17,283 nt of DNA, from positions 1 through 17,283 of the forward strand of contig SVCR01000009.1 of the NCBI GenBank assembly GCA_015058265.1, in the 5' to 3' direction. Source of the DNA: Clostridiales bacterium. GTDB lineage: Bacteria > Bacillota_A > Clostridia > Peptostreptococcales > Anaerovoracaceae. Below, in pieces: positions 1-17,283 of this stretch. Each line of letters starts with the position of its first letter. The first letter of the stretch is position 1. The notes beneath the pieces are model-generated. The model ran no database searches, was not told the origin of the DNA, and saw only the letters and a list, made by a program, of their open reading frames with translations. Position numbers and translations under genes: made by a program.

Positions 1-56
1 CGAACCCACAACCTACCGGTTAACAGCCGGTTGCTCTGCCATTGAGCTACCTCGGA
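1..56 (-). tRNA. tRNA-Asn (anticodon GUU), 3' end cut off by the window
   Basis: Read on the minus strand, the sequence begins with acceptor arm TCCGAGG at 56-50. It continues with a D-arm GCTC/GAGC around an AATGGCA loop, then an anticodon stem ACCGG/CCGGT around the loop CTGTTAA. The loop's central triplet is GTT, which reads asparagine codons. The variable loop and the start of the T-arm (GTGGG TTCG) follow, and the window ends before the 3' half of the T-stem and the acceptor complement. The gene has its own strong promoter about 30 bases upstream. Isotype confidence is high because the anticodon loop and D-arm are intact; completeness and the presence of an encoded CCA cannot be judged. 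Confidence 0.95.
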
Positions 57-86
57 ACAATCTTTGCCATTATTTGCGACTCGTTT

Positions 87-115
87 AGTATAGCGGATTC
101 GGGCATCGTTGTCAA
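87..115 (-). promoter_or_regulatory. sigma-A promoter of tRNA-Asn
   Basis: On the minus strand there is a perfect -35 TTGACA (115-110), exactly 17 bases of spacer and a -10 TATACT (92-87), one mismatch from consensus. Transcription would start near position 80, about 24 bases before the mature tRNA 5' end at 56. That gives the short leader expected of a stable RNA gene. This is the best promoter in the window and suggests the tRNA is transcribed independently of the upstream TPR gene. Confidence 0.85.
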
Positions 116-126
116 CACCCGAATCC
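95..126. repeat. 9-bp perfect inverted repeat around the tRNA promoter -35
   Basis: GGATTCGGG (95-103) and CCCGAATCC (118-126) are perfect inverted arms 14 bases apart. One arm lies just upstream of the -35 hexamer and the other fills part of the -35/-10 spacer. The placement is what an operator could look like, but a repeat of this size is also expected about once by chance in 17 kb. There is no run of T after it, so it is not a terminator on the minus strand. Confidence 0.4.
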
Positions 127-168
127 TATTTATTTCAACTATTTTTTGTATCTTCCTAATGATAGCAA

Positions 169-185
169 ACCGGTATTTTTCCGGT
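169..185 (-). terminator. weak hairpin after the TPR gene, possible terminator
   Basis: ACCGG and CCGGT form a 5-bp GC-rich stem with a 7-base A/T loop, about 65 bases past the stop codon of the TPR gene. On the minus strand only two or three T residues follow the stem, so intrinsic termination would be weak. No better terminator was seen between the TPR stop (249) and the tRNA promoter. Confidence 0.3.
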
Positions 186-248
186 CTTTTCCTGCCACCG
201 ATATCATACTCTGCGGCCTCAGGCTGCTCTATTCGTCGACTCTATCGA

Positions 249-1298
249 TTAGGAGAGAGTATTCTCAAGCTCTGAATTCCGGTTGACTACCTCTATCTTC
301 TGCCTGTACTTTGCCGCGTTTACCTTATCCCCTATCGCTTCATACAAGCCGGCCAGCTCATCCATCACATCTGTATTACTCGGTGACAGAGTCAGCACCC
401 TCTTCAGATCACTGATCGCTTCTTCAGCATTGCCCAGAGACGCTTCCGCAACTCCGAGGTAATACCACAGAGGCCACCAGTTCTCATAGCGCCCTGTCGT
501 GAACTCCATCAGGACGTCTTTCCCGCCGACAAAGTCTCCGCCCATTATCTTGTTACAGCCGAGCTCTATCTTGACAGGTTCTTCCAGATCCAGCAGCATT
601 CCGGATATCTCATGTCTGAGATCCTCAAGCTGGTTCTCATCCATTCCGGCATCTCCCGCACCTGCGGATGAAGAGTACTTCAGAAAATCATCCCATGTGA
701 GTTTGGTCTTGAGATACAGCCCCATATTCAGGTAGGCATATCCGAGGAAGTAATATCCCATGGCAAAGTCCGGATGACTCATAGTGAGCTTCTCGAAGGC
801 ATCCATCGATTCAGCTTTGAATGAGCCGATGTAGTCCTCGCCGAGATCTGTACCGCCCTCTGCCGCGTTCTCAGCTGCAGTCTCATAACAAGCCTTGCAG
901 GCTCTGCCGTATAAGTACTGTGCCGCCTGAGACTCAGGATCGATCATCAGTGCTGTTCTGAGCAGCATGCATGCTTCCTCATACTTCCCTTCATCAGCGC
1001 ACCTGGCGCCTTCTGATACCAGTATAGGTTCCGCATCATCGCCTGCTGCTGCTTTGATATATGTAAGGTAATTATTCGCGTACACGAAAGAGGCATCTCC
1101 TCCTATGACCCTGGCCATATCAAGGACGATGCTCTTTACCGCTATCCTGCCGTTCTCCCCCTCGCTGATAGGGACCGGGATCCCTTTAAGGATCTCAAGG
1201 CCTCCCATCACGCGGAGAAAATCATCACTCAGCTCACCGAAGAGCATGTCGTGGTTGGCTTTGCTCAGATATTTGCTTATTCTGTCTTCGTTGCTCAA
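249..1298 (-). CDS. tetratricopeptide-repeat (TPR) protein
   Basis: This is a 349-residue soluble protein with no signal peptide or membrane segment. TPR-like helical pairs are visible at about residues 94-136 (an alanine-rich pair ending in ALMIDPES), 164-200 (AFEKLTMSHPDF, GYYFLGYAYLNMG) and, most clearly, 276-337 (WYYLGVAEASLGNAEEAI..., LKRVLTLSPSN, LAGLYEAIGDKVNAAKY). Such repeats bind partner proteins, and no catalytic motif is visible. The start is TTG at 1298: it overlaps the upstream stop codon as TTGA and has GGAG nine bases before it, which suggests translational coupling to the degenerate radical SAM gene. The first ATG inside the frame is only at codon 18. The partner is unknown, but the overlapping upstream protein is the obvious candidate. 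It is the last protein gene before the tRNA. Confidence 0.85.
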   Translation of the reverse strand: MSNEDRISKYLSKANHDMLFGELSDDFLRVMGGLEILKGIPVPISEGENGRIAVKSIVLDMARVIGGDASFVYANNYLTYIKAAAGDDAEPILVSEGARCADEGKYEEACMLLRTALMIDPESQAAQYLYGRACKACYETAAENAAEGGTDLGEDYIGSFKAESMDAFEKLTMSHPDFAMGYYFLGYAYLNMGLYLKTKLTWDDFLKYSSSAGAGDAGMDENQLEDLRHEISGMLLDLEEPVKIELGCNKIMGGDFVGGKDVLMEFTTGRYENWWPLWYYLGVAEASLGNAEEAISDLKRVLTLSPSNTDVMDELAGLYEAIGDKVNAAKYRQKIEVVNRNSELENTLS

Positions 1299-2818
1299 TC
1301 TTCTATACTCCAGCCTGCTCTTTCAAATTTGATCATGGCATCTTCCGGCAGTTCTTTCTCGAGATCTGCATGGACTGCATCCCTGAGGATGTCCAGCTTG
1401 AGAGTATCATCGAACTGATAATACAGATCCGTTGCCCAAGCGTAGAGCAGTCTTGCAAGCTGATCCTTTCTGTGGAGCCTGGTTCCGTAACCCTTGCTGT
1501 ATATGAACTCAGTCAGGCTGTGGAAGAGATCATACGGTTTGATACCGGTATCGTTCATGATCCTAGGCAACGATGCTTTGAATCCGCCATTGCCCAGATA
1601 TGCATCGACTACTCTTGCCATAGTTCTCAGATCGATCATCTCAACAGCTGAGAGATGATCTGTGCAGATGACATCATACGGAGCTTCATCTGTATAGACA
1701 TATCCGAACTTGTCTGCATTGTATCTGAGGACAGTGCCCTTAGCCACTCTTATGTCCTTGATCTTCAGCGGCGATCCTTCGCCCAGGCCGTAAACCTTGT
1801 TGAACGAGCGGCCGAACAGTGCCTCTGTTTCGAGCGGCAGACCTGCAGTTACCGACAGGTTTATTCTGACCTTGCCTGTCTGAAGCAGCTTGGTGACATT
1901 GTACATCAGCTGATAGATGTTAGCTTTGCGTCCGATCGCATCCAGAACTTCCGCGTTGGTGCTCGCGACATCGATATTGAATTCAAACAGACCTTCGCGC
2001 GCTTCGCCGAGAAGTCTTACTGTTTCCTCATCAAGATTGTCGCCGCAGATGTCGAACTCGAATGTAGTAACGCCGTTATCATTATTGATGAGATATTCAA
2101 ATATCCTGTAAGCTCTCTCGCTGTTGAAATTGAACCATCTGTCGAAGAATACGACGCGTTCGACCTCCTTGACCAGGAAGTACCTCAGCTCGCGGCATAC
2201 TCTGTTGAGGCTGAGTGTTCTTACAGTTGAGTCCGGAATGTACTGTGAGTAAACCGTCCTGTCAGCATTGCCTCTGGCGGTTTCATAATAGACCGTTCCT
2301 CCGATAGTGTCTGTCTTATCGTATACGAAAGGCAGATCATCCATCTCCACAGGCTCATCGTAATTGTTGACTACGACCGTATCTCCGTTCCTGAATGCCA
2401 GGCCGTTGATGCTCTCAAAGTCGAATTCGTAGTCCAGAAGCGACTTAAGGAAGTTGAAAAGGACAGTCTCGCCCTCGCCGCGGATAACATAGTCGACCCA
2501 CGGATTAGCCTTCATGTAGTTTCTGGTCTCAAATGATACCTGCATACCTCCTACCACAATAGCTGTGCTCGGAGCTGCCTTCTTGACCATCTCTGCTACC
2601 ATCGAGATATGACGGACATTGAGTTCGTCACAATGCAGGTACACGATACTGTACTTGCCCCTTATTATCTCTTCGTAAATGCTTCCGTCCAGCTCATACT
2701 TGTTGAAGATCCTCATGTCCACATCAAGCGGTGAATCTGCAACTACCGAGTACAGCGAGCTGAGTTCGTAGTCTGTGTATCTGCGGTCTGTCTTGATCGT
2801 ACAAAGCAGGAGTTTCAT
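1295..2818 (-). CDS. degenerate B12-binding-type radical SAM homologue (DUF4080-like) lacking the [4Fe-4S] cysteines
   Basis: This is a 507-residue protein. The N-terminal half resembles the B12-binding/Rossmann region of class B radical SAM proteins (VVGGMQVSFE at about 88-97, VIRGEGET at about 111-118). The rest follows the radical SAM barrel and DUF4080-type C-terminus: LSLNRVCREL, VVFFDRWFN (222-230), an AGLPLETE strand (about 325-332), and a tail resembling ...FGYVYTDEAPYDV. The family normally has RGCPxxCxYC here, but this protein reads RGNADRTVYS. The three cysteine positions are N184, T188 and S191, with CxxxCxxC spacing kept exactly, and no other CxxxCxxC exists in the protein. No DxHxxG cobalamin motif is seen either. 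The frame is intact and long, so this looks like a maintained non-canonical protein, not a decayed pseudogene. I chose ATG 2818 because AGGAAG precedes it and the protein then begins MKLLLCTIK like its relatives; an in-frame TTG at 2839 is the alternative. It overlaps the TPR gene by four bases. Confidence 0.8.
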   Translation of the reverse strand: MKLLLCTIKTDRRYTDYELSSLYSVVADSPLDVDMRIFNKYELDGSIYEEIIRGKYSIVYLHCDELNVRHISMVAEMVKKAAPSTAIVVGGMQVSFETRNYMKANPWVDYVIRGEGETVLFNFLKSLLDYEFDFESINGLAFRNGDTVVVNNYDEPVEMDDLPFVYDKTDTIGGTVYYETARGNADRTVYSQYIPDSTVRTLSLNRVCRELRYFLVKEVERVVFFDRWFNFNSERAYRIFEYLINNDNGVTTFEFDICGDNLDEETVRLLGEAREGLFEFNIDVASTNAEVLDAIGRKANIYQLMYNVTKLLQTGKVRINLSVTAGLPLETEALFGRSFNKVYGLGEGSPLKIKDIRVAKGTVLRYNADKFGYVYTDEAPYDVICTDHLSAVEMIDLRTMARVVDAYLGNGGFKASLPRIMNDTGIKPYDLFHSLTEFIYSKGYGTRLHRKDQLARLLYAWATDLYYQFDDTLKLDILRDAVHADLEKELPEDAMIKFERAGWSIED

Positions 2819-2894
2819 TTCTATTCTTCCTTTCGTCAATTATCAGAAGCAGCTGGCATCACGGTTCTGAATTGCAACCGGTATATGTCAGTAA

Positions 2895-4622
2895 TCACAT
2901 TCTTTCAGGCGCCTTGATCCCGAGAAGAGCCAGGCAATTTGCAATAACTGTTCTTGATGCAAGAACAAGCGCCAGCTTTGCAAGCCTCTCTTCGCTGTTC
3001 TCGACCAGGATGTGTTCGTCATGATAGAACTTGTTGAATGACTGTGCGATATCCACCAGATGGCGTGTAACTATTGACGGTTCATATTTATCCGCTGCCT
3101 CGAGGACGACCTCAGGGACTCTGTACAGCAGTTTGACCAGAGTATTGGCACTGTCGCTGCCGAGATATGACGGATCGTATTTGCCGTCTCTGATAGCTGC
3201 GAGCTCTGCGTCCGAAGCATTCCTCAGAACGCTGGATGCTCTCGCATGTGTATACTGAACGTAAGGACCTGTCTCGCCGTCAAAGTTGAGGACTTTGTCC
3301 CACGAGAATACATAGTCCTTGATCCTGTTGTTGGAGAGTTCCTGGAAGATAACTGCTCCGATACCTACCTCGGATGATACCTTATCGATATCTACGCCCT
3401 GAGTGTTCTTCTCCCTCATGAGCTCGGCAGTCTTCTGAACAGCGGTATTGAGTACGTCTTCGAGGAATACAACTCTTCCCTCACGTGTGGACATCATCTT
3501 GATATCGTCACCATCAGCCAGACTGACGAGGCCGAAAGGAACATGGATGCAGTCTTTCTGCCATTCATATCCCATCAGCTCGAGAATCTTCTTCCACTGC
3601 TTGAAGTGGAGGTTCTGCTGGGAAGCGACGACGTATATGCATTTATAGAAATCATAATGCTCTTTTCTGTAGACCGCAGCAGCTATGTCACGAGTGACGT
3701 AGAGGCTGGATCCGTCAGACTTGGTTATCATGGCAGGGCTCATACCGTATTCCTCAAGGTCAACGATCTGCGCTCCCTCCGACTTGATAAGAAGGCCTTT
3801 GTCCTTGAGTTCCTGTATGAATCTCGGCATCTTGTCAGAATAGAAGCTCTCGCCTGCGTAGGAGTCAAAGCTGATATCCAGCATGTCATATACTCTGTTG
3901 AACTCTGCCAGACTCAGTTCTCTGAACTTCTTCCACAGCTCGACCTCTGCCGGTTCTCCTGCCTCGAGTCTCGCGAATGTAGCTCTTGCTTCATCATCAA
4001 GTGAAGGGTCCTTCTCAGCTTCAACGTGGAACTTAGTGTAATAACCAAGCAAGCTCTTGATCGGATCACTTGCAAGCTCTTCTTCGCTTCCCCACTTGCG
4101 GTAAGCTACGATCATCTTTCCAATCTGTGTTCCGTAGTCACCGAGATGGTTGATCCTTACAACGTCAAAGCCGACAGCATCATACAGCTTGTAGATGGCG
4201 TTGCCGATCACTGTGCTGCGGATGTGCCCGATATGGAAAGGCTTTGCGATGTTAGGCGATGAATACTCGACGATGACTGTGCGGCCTTTGCCTGCATCAG
4301 ATCTGCCGTACGCAGCTCCCTCGCGGTTGATCTCATCGACGACCTGCCCTGCGAAATATGATCTGTTGATGAAGAAATTGACATACGCGTTGACATTCTC
4401 CACTTTGGCAAAAGCATCATTTCCTGCGACCCGTCCGGCGATATCCGCCGCGATCATCTGAGGAGCTTTCCTCAATGCCTTAGCCAGCCTGAAGCATGGG
4501 AAAGCATAGTCACCCATCTTCTCGTCAGCAGGTATCTCGATCATTCCTTTGATCTCTTCCTCTGTCAGGCCGAATGATTCATCAAATACTTCTTTAGCTA
4601 TTATTTCCTTGAAATCTACCAT
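2895..4622 (-). CDS. argS: arginyl-tRNA synthetase
   Basis: This class I synthetase charges tRNA-Arg with arginine in the cytoplasm. At 575 residues it has the usual family length. The N-terminal Arg-specific domain spans about 1-100. It is followed by EYSSPNIAKPFHIGH (119-133), which carries the HIGH signature at 130-133. The second catalytic signature is the MMSTREG version (376-382), common in ArgRS, in place of canonical KMSK. Q/NNRIKDYVF and GPYVQYTHAR (452-461) lead into the DALR anticodon-binding domain, and the protein ends LGIKAPERM, typical of the family. The start is ATG 4622; AAAGGA and GGAT lie upstream. It sits downstream of a DUF523 gene and a 30-codon ORF whose stop overlaps the argS ribosome binding site. 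No T-box is visible in the 114-base spacer. Confidence 0.97.
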   Translation of the reverse strand: MVDFKEIIAKEVFDESFGLTEEEIKGMIEIPADEKMGDYAFPCFRLAKALRKAPQMIAADIAGRVAGNDAFAKVENVNAYVNFFINRSYFAGQVVDEINREGAAYGRSDAGKGRTVIVEYSSPNIAKPFHIGHIRSTVIGNAIYKLYDAVGFDVVRINHLGDYGTQIGKMIVAYRKWGSEEELASDPIKSLLGYYTKFHVEAEKDPSLDDEARATFARLEAGEPAEVELWKKFRELSLAEFNRVYDMLDISFDSYAGESFYSDKMPRFIQELKDKGLLIKSEGAQIVDLEEYGMSPAMITKSDGSSLYVTRDIAAAVYRKEHYDFYKCIYVVASQQNLHFKQWKKILELMGYEWQKDCIHVPFGLVSLADGDDIKMMSTREGRVVFLEDVLNTAVQKTAELMREKNTQGVDIDKVSSEVGIGAVIFQELSNNRIKDYVFSWDKVLNFDGETGPYVQYTHARASSVLRNASDAELAAIRDGKYDPSYLGSDSANTLVKLLYRVPEVVLEAADKYEPSIVTRHLVDIAQSFNKFYHDEHILVENSEERLAKLALVLASRTVIANCLALLGIKAPERM

Positions 4623-4639
4623 AAGCGATCCGTTTTCCT

Positions 4640-4732
4640 TTAATCAGTTAGTTTATTCTGCTTTACGGCCATAAACGCCGGCCGCACGCGCGGGGCTCTG
4701 TTCTTGTACACGATCCCCGTCACAGAGCACAT
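4640..4732 (-). CDS. 30-codon small ORF before argS, possible arginine-rich leader peptide
   Basis: The frame starts at ATG 4732, four bases after the DUF523 stop, with GGAG twelve bases upstream. It ends in TAA at 4642-4640, and that stop merges into the argS Shine-Dalgarno (TAAAGGA). The peptide begins MCSVTGIVYK and ends VKQNKLTD. Its centre, NRAPRVRP (residues 11-18), places three arginine codons within six positions. The fit between the two neighbouring genes suggests either a real small protein or a leader peptide that senses charged tRNA-Arg. No homologue is recognised, and it could be an accidental frame in a GC-rich spacer. Confidence 0.35.
   Translation of the reverse strand: MCSVTGIVYKNRAPRVRPAFMAVKQNKLTD
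4691..4728 (-). promoter_or_regulatory. mutually exclusive stem arms within the argS upstream ORF
   Basis: The segment 4722-4728 can pair with 4695-4701 (7 bp, GCTCTGT-type arm), and 4715-4719 can pair with 4691-4695 (5 bp, CGGGG/CCCCG). The arms interleave and share base 4695. They would therefore compete, or form a pseudoknot, in the RNA that covers the arginine codons of the small ORF. This would suit ribosome-position-dependent regulation, but there is no T-run to make a transcription terminator. Confidence 0.25.
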
Positions 4733-4736
4733 GGCT

Positions 4737-5270
4737 CTATTTATCTCCGAAGACTCTGGCAAAGTTGTTCTCGTCACATATCCTGAAGTCATCAGCAAAT
4801 GCTCTGCGCTCTTCAGAGATGTCCGGGTTCTCTCTCTCCGCGATACAAGCATCGATCAGCTTGTCAGTGAACAAACCGTTCCCTCCGACAAGCTTACCGC
4901 TGAATGATCCGTCATAGACAGATCCGGCTCCGCAGGAAGGACTGTTTGCCTTGAGGATAGCGCCTTCTATCTTGCATGTGCCGTATTTCCTGCTGCCATG
5001 CTCTACGAGCACCGACTGAAGTGACAGCTCAGCTCCGTAGTCAAAGTCTCTTGTGAGATCCTTCCCGTCTTTATCATATACTTTGAAATATCCGTCCTCG
5101 ACCGGGACTATTTCCGCCGGCTGTCTCGGCGAAGGCAGGCATGCTGCGGTTTCCGGACAGACAGTGATATAGTCGTGAGTACGGCAGAACTCTATCAGTT
5201 CTTCGTTTCTGTTGTTCCCTCCATCGTATTTACAATTGTGTCCGAGGAGGCATCTGCTGATTATATACAT
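4737..5270 (-). CDS. DUF523 family protein
   Basis: This is a 177-residue soluble protein of the widespread DUF523 family (COG1683-type), whose molecular role is not established. Recognisable features are the N-terminal RCLLGHNCKYDGG with C7 and C13, VCPE at 37-40 followed by PSPRQPAEI, RDFDYGAE, and the SPSCG motif at 110-114 with YDGSFSGKL just after. The conserved cysteines suggest metal or redox-cofactor binding, which is inference. The start is ATG 5270 with AAAGGA nine bases upstream. It is the first gene behind an extended -10 promoter located just after mutS2, so it probably heads the transcript that includes argS. The stop lies four bases before the small ORF. Confidence 0.9.
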   Translation of the reverse strand: MYIISRCLLGHNCKYDGGNNRNEELIEFCRTHDYITVCPETAACLPSPRQPAEIVPVEDGYFKVYDKDGKDLTRDFDYGAELSLQSVLVEHGSRKYGTCKIEGAILKANSPSCGAGSVYDGSFSGKLVGGNGLFTDKLIDACIAERENPDISEERRAFADDFRICDENNFARVFGDK

Positions 5271-5305
5271 TCTTTATTTCCTTTTGGTAATAAATACGTG
5301 CGAAA

Positions 5306-5328
5306 ACTCTCACCTGACAGGTGAGGGT
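5306..5328 (-). terminator. stem-loop between mutS2 and the DUF523 gene (terminator or attenuator)
   Basis: CTCACCT and AGGTGAG form a perfect 7-bp stem on a three-base loop. Beyond a C-A mismatch, two further pairs extend it on the minus strand. The stem is followed by GTTTTCG, so it resembles a short-tailed intrinsic terminator. It lies about 60 bases past the mutS2 stop, but also downstream of the likely start of the next promoter (5355-5363). It could therefore end mutS2 transcripts or act as a partial barrier in the leader of the DUF523-argS unit. Confidence 0.55.
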
Positions 5329-5354
5329 CTCAATGTCTGTTATTCTGACTAATA

Positions 5355-5363
5355 ATTATAGCA
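5355..5363 (-). promoter_or_regulatory. extended -10 promoter for DUF523-argS unit
   Basis: On the minus strand TGCTATAAT gives a perfect TATAAT with the TGn extension, immediately downstream of the mutS2 stop. No good -35 hexamer is present at 16-18 bases, which is common for extended -10 promoters. A start near 5348 would leave a leader of roughly 78 bases carrying the stem-loop at 5306-5328. Confidence 0.55.
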
Positions 5364-5384
5364 GAAAAACGATCTTACACGCTA

Positions 5385-7796
5385 CTATTTCCGCTCTTTG
5401 AGTTCTACGACAGTGCATCCGTCCCCGCCGTCATTATACGGCGCGGATTTGAATGATTTCACGTGTTTGTTCTTTTTCAGTTCTGCTCTGAGTCCGCTAC
5501 GGAGTATACCCTCTCCTCTGCCGTGGATGACATGGACCGTCCCGAGTCCGGCCAGGAAAGCATCATCGATGTATTTGGACATGAGATCGACGGCTTCATC
5601 GAGATTCTTGCCTATCAGGTTGATCTCCGGCCTGATAGTCTTGGTCTTGCCGAAGGACATGCCGCTGTATTTTCGTTTGTTCTTCTCTTTATTGCCTTCT
5701 TTTTCAGACTCAGCGATGACGATGTCATTGATGTTGACAGCCGTCCTCATAGACCCGAGCATTATGAAGAGCTTGCCCTTGGAATTCGGCAGACTTACGA
5801 CTTCACCGGTCTGATCCAGCTTGGTATATTTCACCTTCATGCCTATCCTGATCATCTCAGGCTCAGGCACCTTGCCTGTCTGCAGAGTTTCCGGCTTCGG
5901 CGCTTCATGAGGCTGATACTTGCTCTCAGCCTGCCTCAGCTCTCTGCGGCCTTTCGCCGCACCTCCGGCGATATGACCTTCATCGAAAGCCGCGTTCTTC
6001 CTGCGGTCCTTGATGCTCCTCAGCTCAGCAGAGATCTCATCGATCGTACCCTGAGCATCTCTCAGCATCATCCTGGCTCTCGATCTCGCATCCTCGAGGA
6101 TCTTATCTGCTTCGGCCCTGGCTTTGATCAGCTCTTTCGAAGCTTCGTCCAGATCATGAGCAGCCTTGTCTCTCGCTATTCCCGCTTCACGGAGTGCTTC
6201 TTCGGCCTCAGCCTGATCGGCTTCGACTCTTGAAACAGCCTCCTCAAATTCAAGCTGTTCCTCACCCAGCAGCTCGGAAGCTCTGGTGATGATCGATTCA
6301 TCCAGTCCGAGTTTTCTTGATATCTCGAAAGCGTTTGATTTTCCCGGCAGCCCGACTCTGAGCTTGTATGTCGGTGAGAGCGTATCGACATTGAATTCCA
6401 TCGACGCATTCTCTACGCCCGGAGTGGAAAGAGCATATTTCTTAAGCTCCGTGTAGTGCGTGGTCGCAGCGACAAGAGCGCCTGCCTCTTTGAGCGTCTC
6501 CAGCTCTGCTATACCGAGAGCCGCGCCCTCGAGAGGATCTGTGCCGGCTCCGAGCTCATCGAGCAGGACCAGGCTGCCCGCGCCCGCCCCTTCAAATATG
6601 CTTATCATATTCTTCATATGAGAGGAGAACGTACTCAGGCTCTGTTCTATGCTCTGCTCATCGCCTATATCCGCATATATCTCACTGAGGACCGGCATGC
6701 TGCTCTTCTCGTCAGCAGGTATATGCAGTCCGCTCTGTGTCATCAGGCAAAGCAATCCTATAGTCTTGAGGGTAACAGTCTTACCTCCGGTATTCGGTCC
6801 TGTTATGAGGAGGGTCGTCCATCTGTGGCCGAGTTCAACATCGATAGGAACCACCTTGTCCGCCGGTATGAGCGGATGTCTGCCTGTCTTTATATCTATT
6901 ATTCCCTTATCATTCAGCAGAGGCTCTCTTCCGTCCATCATGCAGGATAGCTTACCCTTGGCGCTGATGAAATCGAGCTCTGTCAGAAGTCTCTGATTGT
7001 TCTCCAGAGCATTGTGGTGCTCTGCTGTTCTGCTGGTGAACAGTTCGAGTATCCTGTTGATCTCAGCCTGCTCATCCATCCCCAGCTGGCGAAGCTCATT
7101 GTTGAGGTTGACGACAGCCTGCGGTTCTACGAAGAGCGTTGCTCCTGTTGAGGACTGGTCGTGCACCATGCCCGGGAACAGACTGATGTATTCTCTCTTG
7201 ACCGGGATGACATATCTTCCGTTACGCATTGTAACGATCGCATCCTGGAGATGAGTTTTGGCTGATCCGCTCGTCACCATCTTCTGGAGTCTTGACTTGA
7301 TCAGGTCGTTCTTGTTCCTGATCTCTCTTCTGATCCTCCTCAGTTCAGGCGATGCGCTGTCAGCCATCTCGTCTTCACTGAGAACAGACATGCTTATATC
7401 CTGCTCGAGCTTTGGAACAGGCTCCAGCAGACTGCATATCTCCGGGATCACTTTAAGGCCGTCAGGGATATCCGAAGACAGGAAGGCTTTGACCTGCCTG
7501 GTTATCGCAAGACTTGTCCTCACCTGCAGCAGCTCTCTCATGCTGAGCGTCCTGCCCTTGCACGCAAGGCTTACAATGCCGGTGATATCTCCTGTCTCTC
7601 CGATCGGTATATTCCCCTTACATAGAATAACGGAAACCGCCTCAGTAGTTTCCGTTAATGCATCCTGCACCATATGCATATTACTCATCGGGACGAGTTC
7701 TGATATCTTCTCTTTCGCAAGTTCAGATCCCGCCTGATCGCGGAGCAGGCTTAATATTTTGTTGAATTCAAGAAGTCCGAGTATCTTAGAGTTCAT
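5385..7796 (-). CDS. mutS2: MutS2 / RqcU-type ATPase with C-terminal Smr domain
   Basis: At 803 residues this matches the MutS2 family. In Bacillus relatives it acts on collided ribosomes and in ribosome quality control; a role in suppressing recombination has also been reported. An N-terminal helical/clamp region spans about 1-320. The ABC-type ATPase follows, with Walker A GPNTGGKT (333-340), Walker B LVLLDELGAGTDP (409-421) and the LSTFSSHM signature at 387-394. A long charged coiled coil runs over about 515-600, then a KOW-like segment (about 650-695). The Smr domain (about 723-803) carries VHVIHGRGEG (754-763). The Smr start reads INLIG where many homologues have LDLRG. The gene overlaps zapA by 11 bases, starts at ATG 7796 with only a weak Shine-Dalgarno, and is probably translated by coupling. 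Confidence 0.96.
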   Translation of the reverse strand: MNSKILGLLEFNKILSLLRDQAGSELAKEKISELVPMSNMHMVQDALTETTEAVSVILCKGNIPIGETGDITGIVSLACKGRTLSMRELLQVRTSLAITRQVKAFLSSDIPDGLKVIPEICSLLEPVPKLEQDISMSVLSEDEMADSASPELRRIRREIRNKNDLIKSRLQKMVTSGSAKTHLQDAIVTMRNGRYVIPVKREYISLFPGMVHDQSSTGATLFVEPQAVVNLNNELRQLGMDEQAEINRILELFTSRTAEHHNALENNQRLLTELDFISAKGKLSCMMDGREPLLNDKGIIDIKTGRHPLIPADKVVPIDVELGHRWTTLLITGPNTGGKTVTLKTIGLLCLMTQSGLHIPADEKSSMPVLSEIYADIGDEQSIEQSLSTFSSHMKNMISIFEGAGAGSLVLLDELGAGTDPLEGAALGIAELETLKEAGALVAATTHYTELKKYALSTPGVENASMEFNVDTLSPTYKLRVGLPGKSNAFEISRKLGLDESIITRASELLGEEQLEFEEAVSRVEADQAEAEEALREAGIARDKAAHDLDEASKELIKARAEADKILEDARSRARMMLRDAQGTIDEISAELRSIKDRRKNAAFDEGHIAGGAAKGRRELRQAESKYQPHEAPKPETLQTGKVPEPEMIRIGMKVKYTKLDQTGEVVSLPNSKGKLFIMLGSMRTAVNINDIVIAESEKEGNKEKNKRKYSGMSFGKTKTIRPEINLIGKNLDEAVDLMSKYIDDAFLAGLGTVHVIHGRGEGILRSGLRAELKKNKHVKSFKSAPYNDGGDGCTVVELKERK

Positions 7797-8268
7797 CTTC
7801 GCTGTTCATTCTTTTGATAGACTTGAGCTCGTTCTTGAGATTGACATTTTCCATCTGAAGATCGAAGTATGCATTTTCCATCTCTACGAGCTTCTCCTGG
7901 AGTTTCTTGTAGTCCTCATTGTTCTGCGACTGTCTGTCGACCTCAGTGGACATCTTTTCCTTGAGATCGGTCACCTGTTTCTTGGTCTGCTCCCACATCG
8001 CGATGTAATGCTTTACATCGTTATCAAGCTGATAATTCTCTGTCTGGAGCTTGAGCACCATATCAGTGCTGTCCATGAGTTTTTCAGTGACATTAAGTGC
8101 AGTGAGAACTGCAGCTCTGAAGTTAGGATTCACGTTAAGGGCTTTGCTGGTACGTCTCAGTTCATCATCAACATACTTCGCTATGTCCTTGATACGCTCC
8201 TCACTCTTTTCACTGGAGAGTACATAATTAGATCCGCAGATCATCACATCAGCTCTGTTCTTTTCCAT
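7786..8268 (-). CDS. zapA: cell division protein ZapA
   Basis: This is a 160-residue protein. Its N-terminal globular ZapA domain covers about 1-68: VMICGSNYVLSSEKSEERIKDIAKYVDDEL-type start, then NPNFRAAVLTALNVTEKL. A long, highly charged coiled coil runs over about 70-150. ZapA tetramers bundle FtsZ filaments at midcell. It is longer than the Bacillus or E. coli protein because of the extended coil. The start is ATG 8268 behind AAGGGG. It lies 23 bases after the RNA methyltransferase and two genes after ftsZ, and it overlaps mutS2, an arrangement often seen in Firmicutes. Confidence 0.9.
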   Translation of the reverse strand: MEKNRADVMICGSNYVLSSEKSEERIKDIAKYVDDELRRTSKALNVNPNFRAAVLTALNVTEKLMDSTDMVLKLQTENYQLDNDVKHYIAMWEQTKKQVTDLKEKMSTEVDRQSQNNEDYKKLQEKLVEMENAYFDLQMENVNLKNELKSIKRMNSEDEL

Positions 8269-8291
8269 TTTGTCTTCCCCTTGTTAACTGT

Positions 8292-9092
8292 TTAATGATT
8301 CCTGACAGCTTCATACATCAGTATCGATGCTGATACAGCTGCATTCAGGGATTCGGTATTTCCCTTCATCGGAATGTTCACCCTTATATCTGCGAGTTCC
8401 ATAACCTCGTCGCTGATCCCGTTGCCTTCATTGCCAATGACCAAAGCTATATTTCTGCTCAGATCTGCCTCATAGTACGGCACGCCTTGTGCAGGATCAG
8501 TAACAGCGATCCTCCTGCCCGTTCTTCGAAGAAGTCTCTCCAGCTCATCTGCGCTGTCAACATACGCGAACGGTATCTCGAATATCATTCCTGCAGTAGA
8601 CCGCAGGACTTTGGGTGAATATATATCTGCAGTACCCTTGATCGCAATGATCATTCCGTAACCGGCAGCAACTGCAGTCCTGATCATCGTCCCTATATTC
8701 CCCGGATCCTGTATCCTGTCAAGCACCAGTATATTTGAATCTTCAGCGATGCGCTCAGCCATCCCGGGATCATTGGCAGGCATCCCGGCAACCGCCAGTA
8801 CGCCTACACCGTGTCCGGCATCAGTGATCTTATCGAAGATATGCTGAGGCACCACGCACACATCAGGCTTACCTGCAGATATACAGGAATCAATGAACTC
8901 CTGCAGTTCATCTCCTGCCGGGGTGTCCGGCACCAGGATGAAGCGGATATCACTACCTGCATAGGCCGCCTGTCTTATAAGGTTGATACCTTCGGCTGCG
9001 AACAGCCCTTCGTTGACTCTGCCCCTTCGAGTCTTCAGTTTGCTGACAAGCTTGAGCCTGCTGTTACTTTCTGATTCTATTCTGACCAGCAT
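8292..9092 (-). CDS. TrmH/SpoU-family RNA 2'-O-methyltransferase
   Basis: This 266-residue SPOUT enzyme transfers a methyl group from SAM to a ribose 2'-OH of rRNA or tRNA. An N-terminal substrate-binding region (about 1-105) begins with ESNSRLKLVSKLKTRRGR and has the FAAEGINLI segment. The knotted catalytic domain follows, with motif 1 DPGNIGTMIRTA (129-140), motif 2 LVIGNEGNGIS (217-227) and motif 3 IPMKGNTESLNAAVS (240-254). The layout resembles the YsgA-type group, often called 23S rRNA methyltransferase, but the target base cannot be told from sequence. The start is ATG 9092 with AGGAAAG upstream. It lies 23 bases after ftsZ and 23 before zapA, inside a cell-division block, which is an uncommon place for it. 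Confidence 0.92.
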   Translation of the reverse strand: MLVRIESESNSRLKLVSKLKTRRGRVNEGLFAAEGINLIRQAAYAGSDIRFILVPDTPAGDELQEFIDSCISAGKPDVCVVPQHIFDKITDAGHGVGVLAVAGMPANDPGMAERIAEDSNILVLDRIQDPGNIGTMIRTAVAAGYGMIIAIKGTADIYSPKVLRSTAGMIFEIPFAYVDSADELERLLRRTGRRIAVTDPAQGVPYYEADLSRNIALVIGNEGNGISDEVMELADIRVNIPMKGNTESLNAAVSASILMYEAVRNH

Positions 9093-9115
9093 CGCTGTCT
9101 TTCCTGCGTATTGAA

Positions 9116-10258
9116 TTATCTCAGGAATTCAGGAATATCGAATTCAGCGGATCCGGATGAAGGAACGCTGCTGTCTTCGAACAGAGCATTCAGGTCGACC
9201 TCTCTGCCTTTCATTCCGTCTACTTCTACCTCTTTACCGGTAAGAGTGTTCCTGCCGCCTTCAGGTGCATCGATGATCCCGTCCATGCCTGCTCTTGCAT
9301 TGTTGAAGTCAGTTGCGATGATAGTGACGGAGATCTTCTCCTGCATCTCTTCGCTGATAGCAGCTCCGAAGATGATATTAGCATCAGCATCAGCTTCGGT
9401 CTGTACCTTCTCAGCTATTGTATTGATATCAAGCATTCCCATGTCATATCCGCCGGATACATACAGAAGAATTGACTTGGCTCCTGCGATAGATGTCTCG
9501 AGGAGTGGGCTGTTGAGAGCATTCTGGATAGCTTCGTCGATCCTGTTCTCTCCTTCGCCTACGCCGACGCCCATGTGAGCAACGCCTCTGCCCTCCATGA
9601 TAGTCCTTACATCGGCAAAGTCTACGTTGACCAGACCATATTCACTGATAAGATCGGAGATGCCCTGAACACCTTTTCTGAGTACATCATCTGCCATTGC
9701 AAATGCCTCGAGCATCGAAGTGTTCTTCTGACTGGTATCGATCAGTCTGTCGTTAGGAATGATGACAAGAGAGTCAACAAAGTTGCTGAGGTACTGGATA
9801 CCCTTGGCAGCTCTGTTCCAACGCTTCTTGCCTTCGAATGTGAATGGCTTGGTAACTACAGCTACTGTAAGAGCGCCGCAGTCCATCGATGCCTTAGCGA
9901 TGACCGGAGCAGCTCCTGTTCCTGTACCGCCGCCCATTCCTGCAGTGATGAATACCATGTCTGCATCCTGGATGTGACCGATGATCTCATCGATCGTTTC
10001 CTCAGCTGCTTTCTGTCCGATCTCAGGATTAGCGCCTGCGCCTCTTCCTCCCGCTATCTTCTCTCCCAGCTGGATCTTTACTTCAGCCTTGCACTTAGAG
10101 AGTGCCTGTCTGTCTGTATTAACCGCTATGAAAGTAACACCCTGAAGTCCGGTGTCAACCATCCTGTTTATCGCATTGCAGCCGCCCCCGCCGACGCCAA
10201 TGACTTTGATGATCGCGGCATTGTCTGTTTCAGATACAAAGTCGGAAACAAATTCCAT
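9116..10258 (-). CDS. ftsZ: cell division GTPase FtsZ
   Basis: The bacterial tubulin homologue polymerises at midcell into the Z-ring that organises septal wall synthesis. At 380 residues it has the usual length. It shows the N-terminal [17 protein letters not shown] loop, the tubulin signature GGGTGTG (109-115), the NTDRQAL segment and the T7 synergy loop NVDFADVR (211-218) with catalytic D213 and D216. A short linker (about 325-370) leads to the C-terminal peptide FDIPEFLR (373-380), which binds partners such as FtsA, SepF or EzrA. The start is ATG 10258 behind a perfect AGGAGG (10271-10266) at seven bases. It heads a group with the RNA methyltransferase, zapA and mutS2. No ftsA is present immediately upstream. 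Confidence 0.98.
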
Positions 10259-10477
10259 AGTTAGCCCTCCTCGTAAAACTCATAAATAGATATAGTTATC
10301 TTAACATATAGTAAGGTTAAATGCATTAGGTTTGCACAAAAAAACACAACATTTAGCGTCAAATAGCTTGACACGACACAATTACTTGTAAACTGCAGCG
10401 CCGGTACACGCTTCCGCTCCATGCTGTGTCTGTTTTCTTCTCTTGCCGCCCGAACCCCTGCTGAAAGCAGCTCCGGA
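10259..10477 (-). promoter_or_regulatory. ftsZ leader region, no certain gene
   Basis: Of these 219 bases, the half nearest divIB (10400-10477) is GC-rich like coding DNA, while the half nearest ftsZ (10275-10395) is AT-rich. An open frame (GTG 10512 to TAA 10261) crosses it but has no clear start signal, and its second half looks non-coding, so I do not call it. A -35-like TTGACG occurs in the AT-rich part, and TAAGAT preceded by TGT could be a -10, but no pair has good spacing. Placing the ftsZ promoter here is inference from layout. The perfect ribosome binding site is at 10266-10271. Confidence 0.45.
10356..10374. repeat. inverted repeat in the ftsZ leader (operator or weak terminator)
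   Basis: GCGTCAA (10356-10362) and TTGACAC (10368-10374) form a 7-bp stem with one G-U pair over five bases. On the minus strand a run of seven T follows only about ten bases later. This makes it a poor intrinsic terminator for divIB and leaves a protein-binding site as the alternative. The plus-strand arm reads TTGACA, but no matching -10 at usual spacing follows. Confidence 0.35.
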
Positions 10478-11734
10478 TCATATTCCCGGTTCGAACGAAA
10501 CAGTCCCGTCACTTCCGAGAGTTATTGTTCCTCTCTTGATCCCCTCGTTGAACAGCCATTCTATCGACTTGTGAAGGCGGCCGTTCTTGATGAAGGTGAT
10601 GAGAGTATCGTAATCTGTTTTGATCATCAGCGAATCGTAGATGTAAGCGACTACCGCACCGTTCTTTTCCTCTTCGGTCAGATCGATCCGGACAAAGTAC
10701 AGGTCGCCTTTCTTCGCAGACTGCAGGAGTTTGAGGAGCTTCTCGAACTTCTTGTCATCCTTGGTCCCGATCTTCTCCCCGAGCTTGATCCTGGATACTA
10801 CCATGCCTTCCGCACGCGTCACCTTAGGTTCCGTTCTCGTCTTCCTGAGAAGTATGCCTTCCTCGTCCATTACCAGATAGTCATTATCGTATTTGAACGA
10901 ACAGGCTTCCTGTCTCTCCGTAACAGTGATCACCAGAGTCGAAGGCAGCTGTCTTGTCACTGTAGCGGTCTTGATATACGGATTCTGTTCGAGATATTCA
11001 ACGATCTCATTAGTTCCCGGATCATATATGAGATTCCTGCCCGGGACGGCATGTGAGATATTCAGTATCTCCTCCCAGGTATAATGTTCATTACCGCGAA
11101 CTTCTATCGATGTGATCGTAAAGAAACCGGATATGGTGAACAGGAAAGTTCCTGTCAGGACGAGCAAAGTGATAAGTGTTATCCTGATCCTTCTTCTGGT
11201 CCTGCGGGCTCTCTCAGCGTTAGCCCGCTTCCTCTCTTTGATCCTGTCTCTTATCGCCTGATCTTCAGGGCTGAGGCCTTCAGCGGCATTCGCGTCACTG
11301 CCGTCATCAAGATCGGCAGCGTCCATGTTGTACTGCGTTGTGAACCGGATATGTACATCCGCGTCTTCCTCGGATATCCCCGTCTTTCTGCTTGTATACA
11401 GATCATCTAGAGTCATCCAGGTATCATCCGGCATCCCGCGGTCATCATAGCCGAGTCCCGTCCTCTTCGATACCGCTCCGTCTCCCTGTTCCGGACCGGC
11501 ATCATCCCATTCAGGCTCCTCAAACAGATCTTCATCGGACGCCAAACCGTCAGGCGCCTGCCCGTCATCCGCTCCTCCGTCCGGCATCAGGTCTTCATCC
11601 ATCTGCCCACCGGATACCGCATCTTCGGATGTCAGTTCAGCGCCGCTCTCTTCCGGAATGTCTCCTCGCGAGATCTGTTCCTGCTGTTCAGATATATCTT
11701 CAATTGTGAACTCTTCTCTGTTATCTTCGTTCAC
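10478..11734 (-). CDS. divIB: cell division protein DivIB/FtsQ with long acidic cytoplasmic domain
   Basis: This bitopic membrane protein of the divisome links FtsW and the class B PBP through FtsL/DivIC. Residues 1-160 form a low-complexity cytoplasmic tail with 49 Asp/Glu against 8 Lys/Arg. A strongly basic patch (161-184) follows, then one membrane helix (about 184-206). Outside the membrane a POTRA domain begins ITSIEVRGNEHYTWEEI (207-223), and the FtsQ/DivIB beta domain continues to the end. The acidic tail is longer than in most relatives. The start is GTG 11734, sharing one base with the murG stop (TAGTG), with GGAG eleven bases upstream. The closing stretch after FIKNGRLHKS is family-like, so the 3' end is probably intact. 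Confidence 0.9.
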   Translation of the reverse strand: MNEDNREEFTIEDISEQQEQISRGDIPEESGAELTSEDAVSGGQMDEDLMPDGGADDGQAPDGLASDEDLFEEPEWDDAGPEQGDGAVSKRTGLGYDDRGMPDDTWMTLDDLYTSRKTGISEEDADVHIRFTTQYNMDAADLDDGSDANAAEGLSPEDQAIRDRIKERKRANAERARRTRRRIRITLITLLVLTGTFLFTISGFFTITSIEVRGNEHYTWEEILNISHAVPGRNLIYDPGTNEIVEYLEQNPYIKTATVTRQLPSTLVITVTERQEACSFKYDNDYLVMDEEGILLRKTRTEPKVTRAEGMVVSRIKLGEKIGTKDDKKFEKLLKLLQSAKKGDLYFVRIDLTEEEKNGAVVAYIYDSLMIKTDYDTLITFIKNGRLHKSIEWLFNEGIKRGTITLGSDGTVSFEPGI

Positions 11735-12840
11735 TATTTATATGTCTCCATTATATTGTTGTAAATAATATCAGCCGCATCAGTCGGAGCGACACCGATG
11801 CTGGCCGCCTCCAGCTCTCTGATCTGACCTCTGTCAGAGTCAAGAGAAGAGAGTATCCTCATAACATCACGTGTCGTATTCTCATTTTCTCTGACGATGA
11901 AGGCCCCTCCCGCGTCAGCGACGGCTTTGGCATTATAGTACTGATGATCCGCCGTTACGTTAGGAGAAGGGACGAATATCGCCGCTCTGCCCGCCATCGT
12001 GGTCTCTGCTGTAGACAGCGCACCGCTCCTGCTTACGGAAATATCAGACGCTGACAGCATAGCCGGCATGTCACTGATATAAGCAGATATCCTGACATTA
12101 TCTGGCGCAAAGCCCTCTGCCTTGAGCCTGGATGTTATCTCATCATAATACATGCGGCCCGTACCCCATATGATAGTATATCCCGGTTTCCCGGCATACT
12201 CGCGGGCTACTTCCTCACCGATCATATTGGTCATAGCAGAGCCGAGACTTCCGCCGAACACCATGATGACCAGATCATCTTGCGGGATACCGAGCGATGC
12301 TCTGTCCTCAGATCTGCTGCGGCCGGAGAAATCACTCCTCACAGGATTTCCGCTCAGGATGATCTTGTCCCTGTCCTTCTCATTGAAATACTCTCTTGCG
12401 CTTTCAAATCCAAGAAATATCCTGCGCGCAAATCTTCCCAGCATCCTGTTTGATACTCCCGGGAATCCGTTCTGTTCGTGCAGATAGATTGGGACATGAC
12501 ATCTGTGAGCCGCCAGAACGACCGGCACACTGATGAAGCTGCCTGTACTTACAACTGCGTCAGGCTTGAACTTTTTGATTATGCGTGTCGCCTGCGCAGT
12601 CCCCCTCAGAGTCTCTGCAACCGTCTTTACGTCTTTGAGCACGTTGCTCCTGTCAAGAGGGCTTGAGTGGACCTCATACAGTTTGTAGCCATGATCCGGG
12701 ATTATAGTTCTTTCGAGCGATTCCCCTCTCGCTATATATATGACCTCACAGTCCGGATCGGCAGCTCTGAATCTGTCGCCTATGGCAAGAGCCGGATAGA
12801 TATGACCACCGGTACTGCCTCCTGTAAGTACTATTTTCAC
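11734..12840 (-). CDS. murG: UDP-GlcNAc transferase MurG (lipid II synthesis)
   Basis: This peripheral membrane GT-B glycosyltransferase adds GlcNAc to lipid I to make lipid II. At 368 residues it has the normal family length. The acceptor-side G-loop is TGGSTGGHIYPALAI (6-20) with H13, followed by STGSFISVP (98-106) and the HEQNGFPG motif (121-128). The donor domain has FGGSLGS (195-201) and the UDP-GlcNAc-binding SRSGALSTAETT (270-281) with its conserved Glu, then PSPNVTADHQYYNA (291-304). The start is GTG 12840, overlapping the ftsW stop as GTGA, with AAGGATGGG upstream. divIB follows directly; murB and murC, which sit nearby in many relatives, are absent here. Confidence 0.97.
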   Translation of the reverse strand: MKIVLTGGSTGGHIYPALAIGDRFRAADPDCEVIYIARGESLERTIIPDHGYKLYEVHSSPLDRSNVLKDVKTVAETLRGTAQATRIIKKFKPDAVVSTGSFISVPVVLAAHRCHVPIYLHEQNGFPGVSNRMLGRFARRIFLGFESAREYFNEKDRDKIILSGNPVRSDFSGRSRSEDRASLGIPQDDLVIMVFGGSLGSAMTNMIGEEVAREYAGKPGYTIIWGTGRMYYDEITSRLKAEGFAPDNVRISAYISDMPAMLSASDISVSRSGALSTAETTMAGRAAIFVPSPNVTADHQYYNAKAVADAGGAFIVRENENTTRDVMRILSSLDSDRGQIRELEAASIGVAPTDAADIIYNNIMETYK

Positions 12841-14228
12841 CTGTAACCCATCCTTTCAGAATTAAGCGCGGAATAGACCGGCTGCGGCTGCGCTGCGGCA
12901 TTTTGTGCCGGGTTTTCCTGTGCCCGTTTTTTCTTCTTCGCTTTACTTCGCTTTTTCTTTGATACGTTCAGCGATATACCCATGGATATCATGAACGACC
13001 ACATCGATGTACCGCCGTAGCTTATGAACGGGAGTGTGATCCCCGTAGCCGGCATCGATGATGTTACTACCGCGACATTTATGATGACCTGCAGACCGAG
13101 CATTACAGCAACGCCCGTTGCAAGATAGAATCCGAGTTTGTCTTCAGCCCTGACCGCTATCAGCATGAGCTTATAGAGCAGGAACATGTAGCACAGCATG
13201 AGGATCAGGAATCCTATGAAACCCAGTTCCTCGCCTATAATAGCCAGAATAAAGTCGTTCTGCGGCTCAGGCAGATACATGTTCTTGGCAATACTCTTGC
13301 CGAAGCCGAGTCCCCTTACGCCTCCGTTGCCGAGCGCGATCAGTCCCTGTGTGACCTGATACCCGTCACCCTGTCTGTCAGCCAGAGGATCGATGAAGCT
13401 CGTCAGTCTCTGATACCAGTGATACGGGGTCCTGAATCTGATGATGTAGAAGTATCCTCCTATAGCCGCTGCAGCCGGGAATGCCAGCAGCAGCAGGTTC
13501 ATGCCGGCGACGATCATGATGGCGATCATGATAACGACGATAACGATAGCAGTGGAAAGGTTCGGCTGTTTGACGATGAGGCCGAAGTGTATCCCCATTA
13601 CCAGCAGCAAAATACCGAGGCCTTTCAGCGTTCTGATGTTATCAGGATTCTTGGCCAGGAAGGCCGAAGTGAATATGATGACCAGGAATTTTGACAGCTC
13701 ACTCGGAGTTATCCTTACTCCGAGTATAGTTATCCATCGCTGAGCGTTGTTGGTAGTAGATCCTATGAGGAGTACCAGCACGAGAAGTCCGATACTGATG
13801 AGTACCGCCGGGATCGCCAGTTTGGAATATCGATGGTAATCAAAATTGGCCACGCCGAACATCAGGATCCAGCCTGATACCGCAAACCCCAGCTGTTTGG
13901 TGAGGTAGTAGAGCGGATTCGGATCAGATGTGTTGATCGTCTGATAATAGCCTGCGCTGAAGACCATGGCAACTCCAAACAACGAAAAGATTATGACCAT
14001 GATCGCTACACTGTAGTCATAGCCTCCGTATCTCTCGCCGAGCTTTCTGAGTGTCGCCGTGCGCGAATTGCCGAGCGTTCCGTTAGCCGCTCTCATCCTG
14101 CGCTCTTCAACAGCAGTCGCTTTGTCAGCTGCCCTGCGGTTTTTCACTATTTCTTTTTTCCTTTTCCTGCGGGCTCTCCTGCTTTCCTTTTCAGCCATCT
14201 TCAGCCAGTTCTCCTGTTTATCCGTCAA
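12837..14228 (-). CDS. ftsW: SEDS peptidoglycan polymerase FtsW (or SpoVE)
   Basis: This polytopic membrane glycosyltransferase polymerises lipid II with its class B PBP. Ten hydrophobic segments lie between about residues 74 and 421. Family marks are NAQRWI (161-166), KQPNLSTA (220-227), the extracellular DPLADRQGDGYQ (280-291) with the expected catalytic Asp at 284, LPEPQNDFILAIIGEELG (319-336) and PFISYGGTSM (400-409). The cytoplasmic ends are unusually basic: residues 1-66 carry 22 Lys/Arg, and 424-436 are mostly Lys/Arg. The start is uncertain: TTG 14228 overlaps the murD stop as TTGA but has no clear Shine-Dalgarno, while ATG 14198 (codon 11) has AGGAG twelve bases upstream. Context cannot separate FtsW from a sporulation SpoVE paralogue. 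Confidence 0.94.
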   Translation of the reverse strand: MTDKQENWLKMAEKESRRARRKRKKEIVKNRRAADKATAVEERRMRAANGTLGNSRTATLRKLGERYGGYDYSVAIMVIIFSLFGVAMVFSAGYYQTINTSDPNPLYYLTKQLGFAVSGWILMFGVANFDYHRYSKLAIPAVLISIGLLVLVLLIGSTTNNAQRWITILGVRITPSELSKFLVIIFTSAFLAKNPDNIRTLKGLGILLLVMGIHFGLIVKQPNLSTAIVIVVIMIAIMIVAGMNLLLLAFPAAAAIGGYFYIIRFRTPYHWYQRLTSFIDPLADRQGDGYQVTQGLIALGNGGVRGLGFGKSIAKNMYLPEPQNDFILAIIGEELGFIGFLILMLCYMFLLYKLMLIAVRAEDKLGFYLATGVAVMLGLQVIINVAVVTSSMPATGITLPFISYGGTSMWSFMISMGISLNVSKKKRSKAKKKKRAQENPAQNAAAQPQPVYSALNSERMGYR

Positions 14229-15616: not shown

Positions 15617-15776
15617 GATATGCCTTTCTCTGGTCGACTGCTGTTTACGATCATCCGCAGCGATTCTTCATCCTCCGCTGATCACCGCAGCCGCTCAAAC
15701 GTACAGTTTTAATCTTTCTTTGATTTCTATTTATTGAGCAGGTCACCTAAGCGACCCGCTGAGTCTATATTCTCCG
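15617..15776 (-). promoter_or_regulatory. mraY-murD spacer with a strong hairpin
   Basis: This is the only sizeable gap within the wall-synthesis cluster. On the minus strand 15760-15737 folds into a 10-bp stem (two G-U pairs) with a TTAG tetraloop, starting 17 bases past the mraY stop. No T-run follows, so it is more likely an RNA-processing or 3'-stabilising structure than a terminator. A 13-codon frame starts near 15655 and ends in a TGA overlapping the murD ATG, but it lacks other support. No convincing promoter was found. Confidence 0.45.
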
Positions 15777-16748: not shown

Positions 16749-16789
16749 ATATCCAGATTCTCTCCTGTAATTATTGTTTTGCAGATTAT

Positions 16790-17283
16790 TTATTCACTGT
16801 ATATGTATACTGTCGAGCCCTTAGCGACCTTGTCTCCCGCCTTAGGAAGCTGGTCTACCACGACGAAGGATTCGCCTTCGCTCTCATCAGGCTTGACCGA
16901 ATACTCGAGTTCACTGTCCTCAAGAACAGCTATAGCCGTCTTGCTGTCTTCACCGATGACATCAGGCACCTCAACGAGGCTTTCCTTGACTTCCTTGGCC
17001 TCGTTCTTGGAATACTTGCGTTCAACTCCCATGTACTGGAGGGATTTCTCCATTACCTCCTGGACGATAGGACCTGCGGTGTAGTTACCGTATTGAGCTT
17101 TGGTCGGCTTGTAGACGATACATATCATAGATATCTGCGGATCGTCCATCGGAGCCATCGCAACGAACGAAGTGTTTGTAGAGTCCTTAGCGTAGCTGCC
17201 GTTATCGACAAGGTTCGCAGTACCTGTTTTTCCTCCGACCCTGTAGCCCGGAACGTATGCCCCGGTACCGCCGGCATCCGATA
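16790..17283 (-). CDS. class B penicillin-binding protein with PASTA domain (FtsI/SpoVD-type), 5' part outside the window
   Basis: Only the last 164 codons are inside the window. They begin in the transpeptidase domain and include VGGKTGTAN (around 17240-17214), the KTG box of the active site. TSFVAMAPMDDPQI, typical of the end of that domain, follows. A helix with NYTAGPIVQEVMEKSLQYM comes next, and then a single PASTA domain from VEVPDVIGEDSKTAIAVL to the end (VYIYSE). Such proteins cross-link septal or spore-cortex peptidoglycan together with a SEDS partner, here probably the FtsW encoded three genes downstream. One C-terminal PASTA domain is typical of SpoVD, but vegetative FtsI homologues in Clostridia can have one too. 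The SxxK and SxN motifs lie beyond the window edge. Confidence 0.93.
   Translation of the reverse strand, partial: SDAGGTGAYVPGYRVGGKTGTANLVDNGSYAKDSTNTSFVAMAPMDDPQISMICIVYKPTKAQYGNYTAGPIVQEVMEKSLQYMGVERKYSKNEAKEVKESLVEVPDVIGEDSKTAIAVLEDSELEYSVKPDESEGESFVVVDQLPKAGDKVAKGSTVYIYSE

Follow-up and report, generated by a model that had tools for sequence, protein, structure and literature searches.

A DUF4080 radical SAM homologue without cluster cysteines in a Mogibacterium-centred clade: a putative lineage-wide pseudoenzyme

Closest described systems and the window gene

Radical S-adenosylmethionine (SAM) enzymes, in which the cluster anchors the amino and carboxyl groups of SAM, are usually recognised by the motif CxxxCxxC. 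We studied a DUF4080 (PF13311) gene of a Clostridiales bacterium whose product lacks this motif; it lies on a stretch of 17,283 nucleotides (assembly GCA_015058265.1, contig SVCR01000009.1, positions 1 to 17,283 of the forward strand), here called the window. The solved structures that best matched the window protein, by sequence and by fold, were those of the cobalamin-dependent radical SAM enzymes TokK and CysS, at identities of 14-18%; compared with them, the window protein is without the cluster cysteines and without an equivalent of TokK Trp76. Canonical DUF4080 proteins from the taxonomic family of M. pumilum and from other Clostridia have in common with it three Pfam regions, a similar predicted fold and, within the family, the gene order ArgS-DUF4080-TPR (tetratricopeptide repeat protein), but differ in keeping CxxxCxxC and a set of invariant residues (see below). 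The heme chaperone HemW is an earlier example of a radical SAM protein put to use as a carrier; according to the accessible part of the source, the E. coli protein contains a [4Fe-4S] cluster, on which heme transfer depends, and cleaves SAM weakly (PMC10320005), features that set it apart from the window protein. Pseudoenzymes are an already known kind of protein, as the accessible part of another source states (PMC10754289). Literature searches, with most subscription journals outside the coverage, gave no text on DUF4080 and none on radical SAM together with Mogibacterium, and the titles and opening parts of abstracts of the papers that they did bring up describe no radical SAM lineage devoid of the cluster.

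The gene occupies positions 1295..2818 of the minus strand, as do all protein features given below, with an ATG at 2818, a stop codon at 1295-1297 and a product of 507 amino acids (aa). A Shine-Dalgarno-like AAGGAAG lies immediately 5' of the ATG, in agreement with the intact 507-codon frame and good ribosome binding site described in an earlier, sequence-only reading. Three Pfam families exceeded their cut-offs: DUF4080 (aa 369-486, 1361..1714; 69.4 bits against a gathering score of 22.9), the Rossmann B12-binding family PF02310 (38.6 against 32.1 bits) and Radical_SAM, the last indicating homology to the radical SAM barrel. Pfam and the predicted fold place the N-terminal Rossmann (B12-binding-like) domain at about aa 1-130 (2429..2818, boundary approximate). 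Where relatives have RGCPxxCxYC, the alignments show RGNADRTVYS (aa 182-191, 2246..2275), so that the three ligand positions are taken by N184 (AAT, 2267-2269), T188 (ACG, 2255-2257) and S191 (TCA, 2246-2248), as the sequence-only reading had proposed for this one protein. Its further statement that the protein has no other CxxxCxxC was also correct: only five scattered cysteines were found (6, 63, 208, 258 and 385), and no substitute conserved cysteine triad. The homology of the region is anchored by the flanking conserved columns Y178, E179, R182, G183 and R200, and a different assignment of residues 180-195 was dismissed by the intermediates RGCPDRCGYS, RGNPDRCAYS and RGTSDRTVYS, which fall in identical columns. 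The claim that family features are kept on both sides of the motif held in part: GEGE and AGLPxE are present, and many invariants are lost, for example where canonical GGPEVS appears as GGMQVS.

Distribution and order of the cysteine losses

The loss of the cysteines was clade-wide. A protein search that admitted lengths of 0.55-1.75 times the query yielded 273 relatives, and CxxxCxxC was found nowhere in the best 120 of them, whose lengths were 497-547 aa. A lone aberrant copy or a sequencing error was ruled out, since these best 120 of the 273 homologues all agree. A scan of genome contigs gave 53 loci: 51 close ones (44-69% identity) without the motif and two distant ones (29-33% identity) that retain it. 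Hits of 100 bits or less (L127) were left out of the locus alignment. The close loci were labelled Mogibacterium, Mobilibacterium, Baileyella, Alterileibacterium, 'Candidatus Crickella' or unnamed Clostridiales, Eubacteriales, Clostridia and Bacillota. DUF4080 was present in 75 of 148 sampled genomes of M. pumilum's taxonomic family and absent from the other 73; eleven of the 75 carry the cysteine-losing type and 64 others. CxxxCxxC occurred in all 61 readable loci of those 64, so that its absence from the cysteine-losing type goes beyond chance. Across the class Clostridia 40 loci were read, two of them strong matches and the others the 38 that scored weakest once G001 and G079 were set aside; 39 of the 40 carry the motif.

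The class-wide exception, L160 in genome G192, has only Cys1 replaced, by Phe, and protein P0194 likewise only Cys1, by Gly; each is an isolated variant or an error. In L096 (G144) a canonical DUF4080 gene is split across two overlapping frames, a frameshift or an assembly error. A divergent paralogue residing beside a normal DUF4080 in one genome was ruled out by the presence of a single DUF4080 in 43 of 43 clade genomes and in 9 of 9 of an overlapping set. Genome G097 holds two, both cysteine-losing (L124 and L129); each has its own MutS2-DUF523-ArgS-DUF4080-TPR block, and for this reason the assembly is probably a mixed bin.

Loci and database proteins were combined into 286 aligned, partly redundant rows, after rows shorter than 430 aa and duplicate loci had been dropped; 59 rows have all three cysteines and 227 do not. 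None of the 227 contains CxxxCxxC anywhere or has Cys3, whereas Cys1 is still present in 16 and Cys2 in 47. That the N/T/S triad itself would be common to orthologues was not borne out (1 of 286 rows); what is shared is the absence of the three cysteines. The stages can be read in the same columns: RGCPDRCGYS in M. kristiansenii (Cys3 replaced by Ser), RGNPDRCAYS in Mobilibacterium, RGVPDTCHYS in M. pumilum (Val, Cys, Ser), and RGTSDRTVYS. A tree of 113 rows, made by a quick method, unrooted and with the motif columns removed, gave one change for Cys3 and five each for Cys1 and Cys2. A more careful tree (101 rows, motif columns excluded, L053 dropped) put the 34 cysteine-losing rows behind one branch with support of 100/100. 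On these alignments the cysteine-losing clade is monophyletic, and Cys3 was lost once, with Cys1 and Cys2 eroding later and repeatedly, starting from CxxxCxxC-bearing members. A burst of change on the stem was considered and is not claimed: the stems are 0.62 and 0.80 long, but two canonical pairs reach 0.59-0.60.

A cluster held by other ligands (other Cys, or Ser, Asp or His), with radical chemistry kept, could draw on Cys208, which 90% of the sampled cysteine-free rows have and no canonical one does, and on Ser, the commonest residue at the third position (144 of 227 rows). The cysteine-free rows, however, show no three conserved Cys columns and have lost further active-site residues as well, which leaves this explanation hardly credible. 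The window protein would hold no [4Fe-4S] cluster, cleave no SAM and have no activity as a B12 radical enzyme.

Erosion of the remaining active site and selection on the fold

The cysteine-losing clade has lost 22 of the 65 columns that are at least 95% invariant in canonical members (a set without L053 and L123), whereas five canonical control groups of 3-16 rows each had lost only 0-2 of 61-84 invariant columns; four of these groups are clades on the careful tree and the fifth joins two neighbouring clades. Losses in the B12-like domain are S62, Y64, W66 and P92; those in the barrel region are C191, S193, K223, T228, H254, E256, E281, G283, Q285, H320, D322, I324, Q352, G354, F355 and K357; N9 and E401 complete the set. 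Cys184 and Cys188 are outside the 22 because early branches keep them. By alignment, the window protein has E254-x-D256 (2051..2059) in place of the canonical invariant H-x-E, N281-x-D283-x-A285 (1964..1978) in place of E-x-G-x-Q, N320-x-S322 (1853..1861) in place of H-x-D, and other residues at aa 354-357 (1748..1759) in place of GFLK.

Column 66 concerns the cobalamin. A profile of canonical members places Trp66 on TokK Trp76; 98% of the canonical DUF4080 sampled have Trp there, against 0 of the 59 clade rows in the sample, the window protein having Leu66 (2621..2623; alignment and profile). In the accessible part of a review, Trp76 fills the space beneath the cobalt at the lower face of cobalamin, and Asn or Arg occupies that position in other cobalamin-dependent radical SAM enzymes (PMC13331322). 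Since other members of the class use Asn or Arg below the cobalt, the loss of Trp66 argues against TokK-like binding only. The remaining lost positions are predicted from the fold to touch SAM or substrate.

On the other side of the account, 27 of the 65 invariant columns are still held at 80% or more in the clade, among them GEGE, R182-G183, D226, F229-N230, G326-P328, E330, F335, F339, G361 and P380-Y381, and the fold of the window protein is predicted intact (predicted local distance difference test score, pLDDT, of 91). These features would suit a SAM or nucleotide sensor, that is, a barrel that, with no cluster, would still take up SAM, one of its products or another nucleotide and pass on a signal, perhaps via the TPR protein: G326, L327, P328, E330, D226, F229, N230, R182, G183 and GEGE are all retained at this level. 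Against it, E281, G283, Q285, K223, T228 and I324 are gone in the clade, and so is the cluster that would anchor SAM; we regard a sensor as unlikely. The sequence-only reading had suggested a pseudo-enzyme, a binding or scaffold protein or a SAM sensor. This range was supported in general, but with ExGxQ, HxE, HxD, GFLK and the Trp on the cobalamin face all lost, a scaffold or binding protein is more likely than a simple SAM sensor.

Several replacements inside the barrel strands are themselves conserved. Of 59 clade rows, 55 have D283, 47 have N281 and 56 have either D or N at position 256; aromatic residues are common at column 228, and Y302, K341, Y466, P195 and R113 are examples of other newly fixed positions. 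In the cysteine-retaining rows D256 and E285 are each found in 29 of 29. With D283, N281 and position 256 conserved, a ligand site or a new reaction is conceivable, and a site refitted with these residues for a non-radical reaction was weighed. Positions 184, 188, 191, 320, 322, 324, 352, 354, 355 and 357 nevertheless vary widely in the clade, Ala replaces E285 in most cysteine-free rows and no known catalytic motif was recognised in the protein, so a non-radical enzyme seems quite improbable. The old site is in part freed and in part newly constrained.

The gene is under strong purifying selection among close relatives. Of the clade pairs, those with dS below 1 were used and L047 was left out; the five close pairs that qualified gave a ratio of nonsynonymous to synonymous substitutions (dN/dS) of 0.050-0.078. 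Between the window gene and L001-L003, dN was 0.21-0.25 and dS 1.5-2.6, too distant for a clean figure and with a ratio well below 1. Stop codons were absent from the matched stretch in 53 of 53 loci. With relatives bearing normal cysteines at 0 of the best 120 of 273, the earlier view that the loss is fixed and not a sign of decay was upheld. The combination that defines a pseudoenzyme, catalytic residues gone and the fold kept under selection, was thus found in the sequence, the predicted fold and the dN/dS values.

A second group with a decayed site was formed by L123 (genome G056; L123:2342-3853), P0175 and P0176. A first tree hinted at L123 as an ancestral intermediate (support 84), a placement rejected when the fuller tree nested the group beside canonical P0177 (support 99/93); since it nests among canonical members, its decay is an independent event. 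The group has lost 21 of the 65 invariant residues, 14 of them in common with the Mogibacterium clade (hypergeometric p 0.0002, with columns treated as equal). The cobalamin-face Trp is lost, whereas the three Cys and ExGxQ, gone in the clade, are retained. With its cysteines still in place in an eroded site, this group shows that erosion can reach the rest of the active site ahead of the cluster ligands.

Gene neighbourhood and the retained role

The names of the neighbouring genes (ArgS, MutS2, DUF523, ZapA, TrmH, FtsZ and FtsQ) are presumed, having been recognised by eye only. The gene we take to be argS, the upstream syntenic anchor (2895..4622, minus strand), is separated from the DUF4080 gene by a gap of 76 bp (2819..2894, no strand). 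Downstream, a TPR gene (249..1298, minus strand) encodes the candidate partner; its start overlaps the DUF4080 stop as TTGA, provided that TTG is the true start. The order ArgS-DUF4080-TPR was found in 50 of 50 clade loci (those of L001-L051 with at least 5 kb), and the clade locus is syntenic with the canonical ones. In 27 of the 28 canonical loci with both ArgS and DUF4080, the gap is 875-1142 bp and contains a radical SAM gene of about 290 aa (identified in L105 by the orthologue search), L123 being the exception; in clade loci it is below 400 bp, except for L047 (425 bp with Ns).

This neighbour has a CX4CX2C motif (GC[SAT]HNxCxFC) in 26 of 26 loci in which its start was read, for example L118:2733-3602, and no NCBIfam model reached its cut-off for the L118 copy. 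With orthologues in M. pumilum's family and the clade defined as matches better than E 1e-55, it was present in 61 of 64 non-clade DUF4080 genomes of the family and in none of 52 clade genomes (11 + 43, 2 shared), some of which carry distant copies of 31-37% identity. The three exceptions were G016 and G100, whose DUF4080 genes sit at the end of a contig or close to it, and G056, the one genome examined of the L123 group, which thus shares the missing neighbour with the clade. Dependence of canonical DUF4080 on the CX4CX2C neighbour fits the family (Fisher p 7e-11, kinship ignored) but fails class-wide: of 157 genomes, 104 have DUF4080 and 12 have the neighbour (E<=1e-60, a cut below which more distant orthologues may score), 11 of the 12 being among the 104. 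The association is a local correlation with two independent losses. B12 shortage was considered as the cause of the loss, and the evidence is no more than suggestive: cobalamin riboswitches occur in six of the 11 clade genomes, at one per genome, and in 53 of the 64 with canonical DUF4080 (Mann-Whitney p 0.003, kinship ignored).

The absence of the neighbour's orthologue from the 52 clade genomes, and the family genomes without any DUF4080, would also fit the slow decay of a gene made dispensable by the loss of a pathway. The low dN/dS contradicts this, and the stop-free loci, the lengths of 497-547 aa among the best 120 of 273 homologues and the high-confidence fold stand against it; we consider decay very improbable.

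The best reading is that the DUF4080 protein of the Mogibacterium-centred clade is a lineage-wide pseudoenzyme at the ancestral locus. Very probably the protein has been retained for a function that does not involve radical SAM chemistry, and it is probably a non-catalytic protein that binds or serves as a scaffold; a role in a complex with the TPR protein is plausible, though we put this forward tentatively. The sequences show that, from members with CxxxCxxC, the single loss of Cys3 was followed by repeated losses of Cys1 and Cys2, and that barrel residues and the Trp that would face cobalamin have gone as well, while the predicted fold is kept. The retained job would be non-catalytic; most likely the protein joins the TPR protein encoded beside it in a complex, as its binding or regulatory subunit. 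The TPR-partner role may already have been ancestral in DUF4080, beside its chemistry, which would explain how the body survived the loss of the active site.

Some observations weigh against this interpretation. The TPR gene is present in 137 of 148 genomes of M. pumilum's family, including 65 of the 73 without DUF4080, so adjacency is no proof of partnership. The retention of GEGE, AGLPxE and D226/F229/N230 allows for residual binding of SAM or a nucleotide, and the conserved D283, N281 and D/N256 are as compatible with a site that was refitted as with a scaffold. The newly fixed residues are in part an effect of clade age, since at 95% the clade shows 11 such residues and a canonical trio 18. 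A bolder and rather doubtful extension of the pseudoenzyme reading is that the emptied cofactor cavity, refitted around the N281-x-D283 strand, binds a new ligand, the protein being a clade-wide receptor or assembly subunit that works with the TPR protein, and that the order in which the chemistry was abandoned can be read in living relatives and was partly repeated in a second lineage.

A clade-wide family that matches Pfam Radical_SAM and bears the DUF4080 name cannot, by its residues, hold the canonical cluster. In this family the passage from a multi-cofactor radical enzyme to a protein without that chemistry is recorded in graded steps, and a parallel case allows comparison. The persistence of this protein implies that the DUF4080 body has a selected role apart from radical chemistry, which would give a handle on the family.
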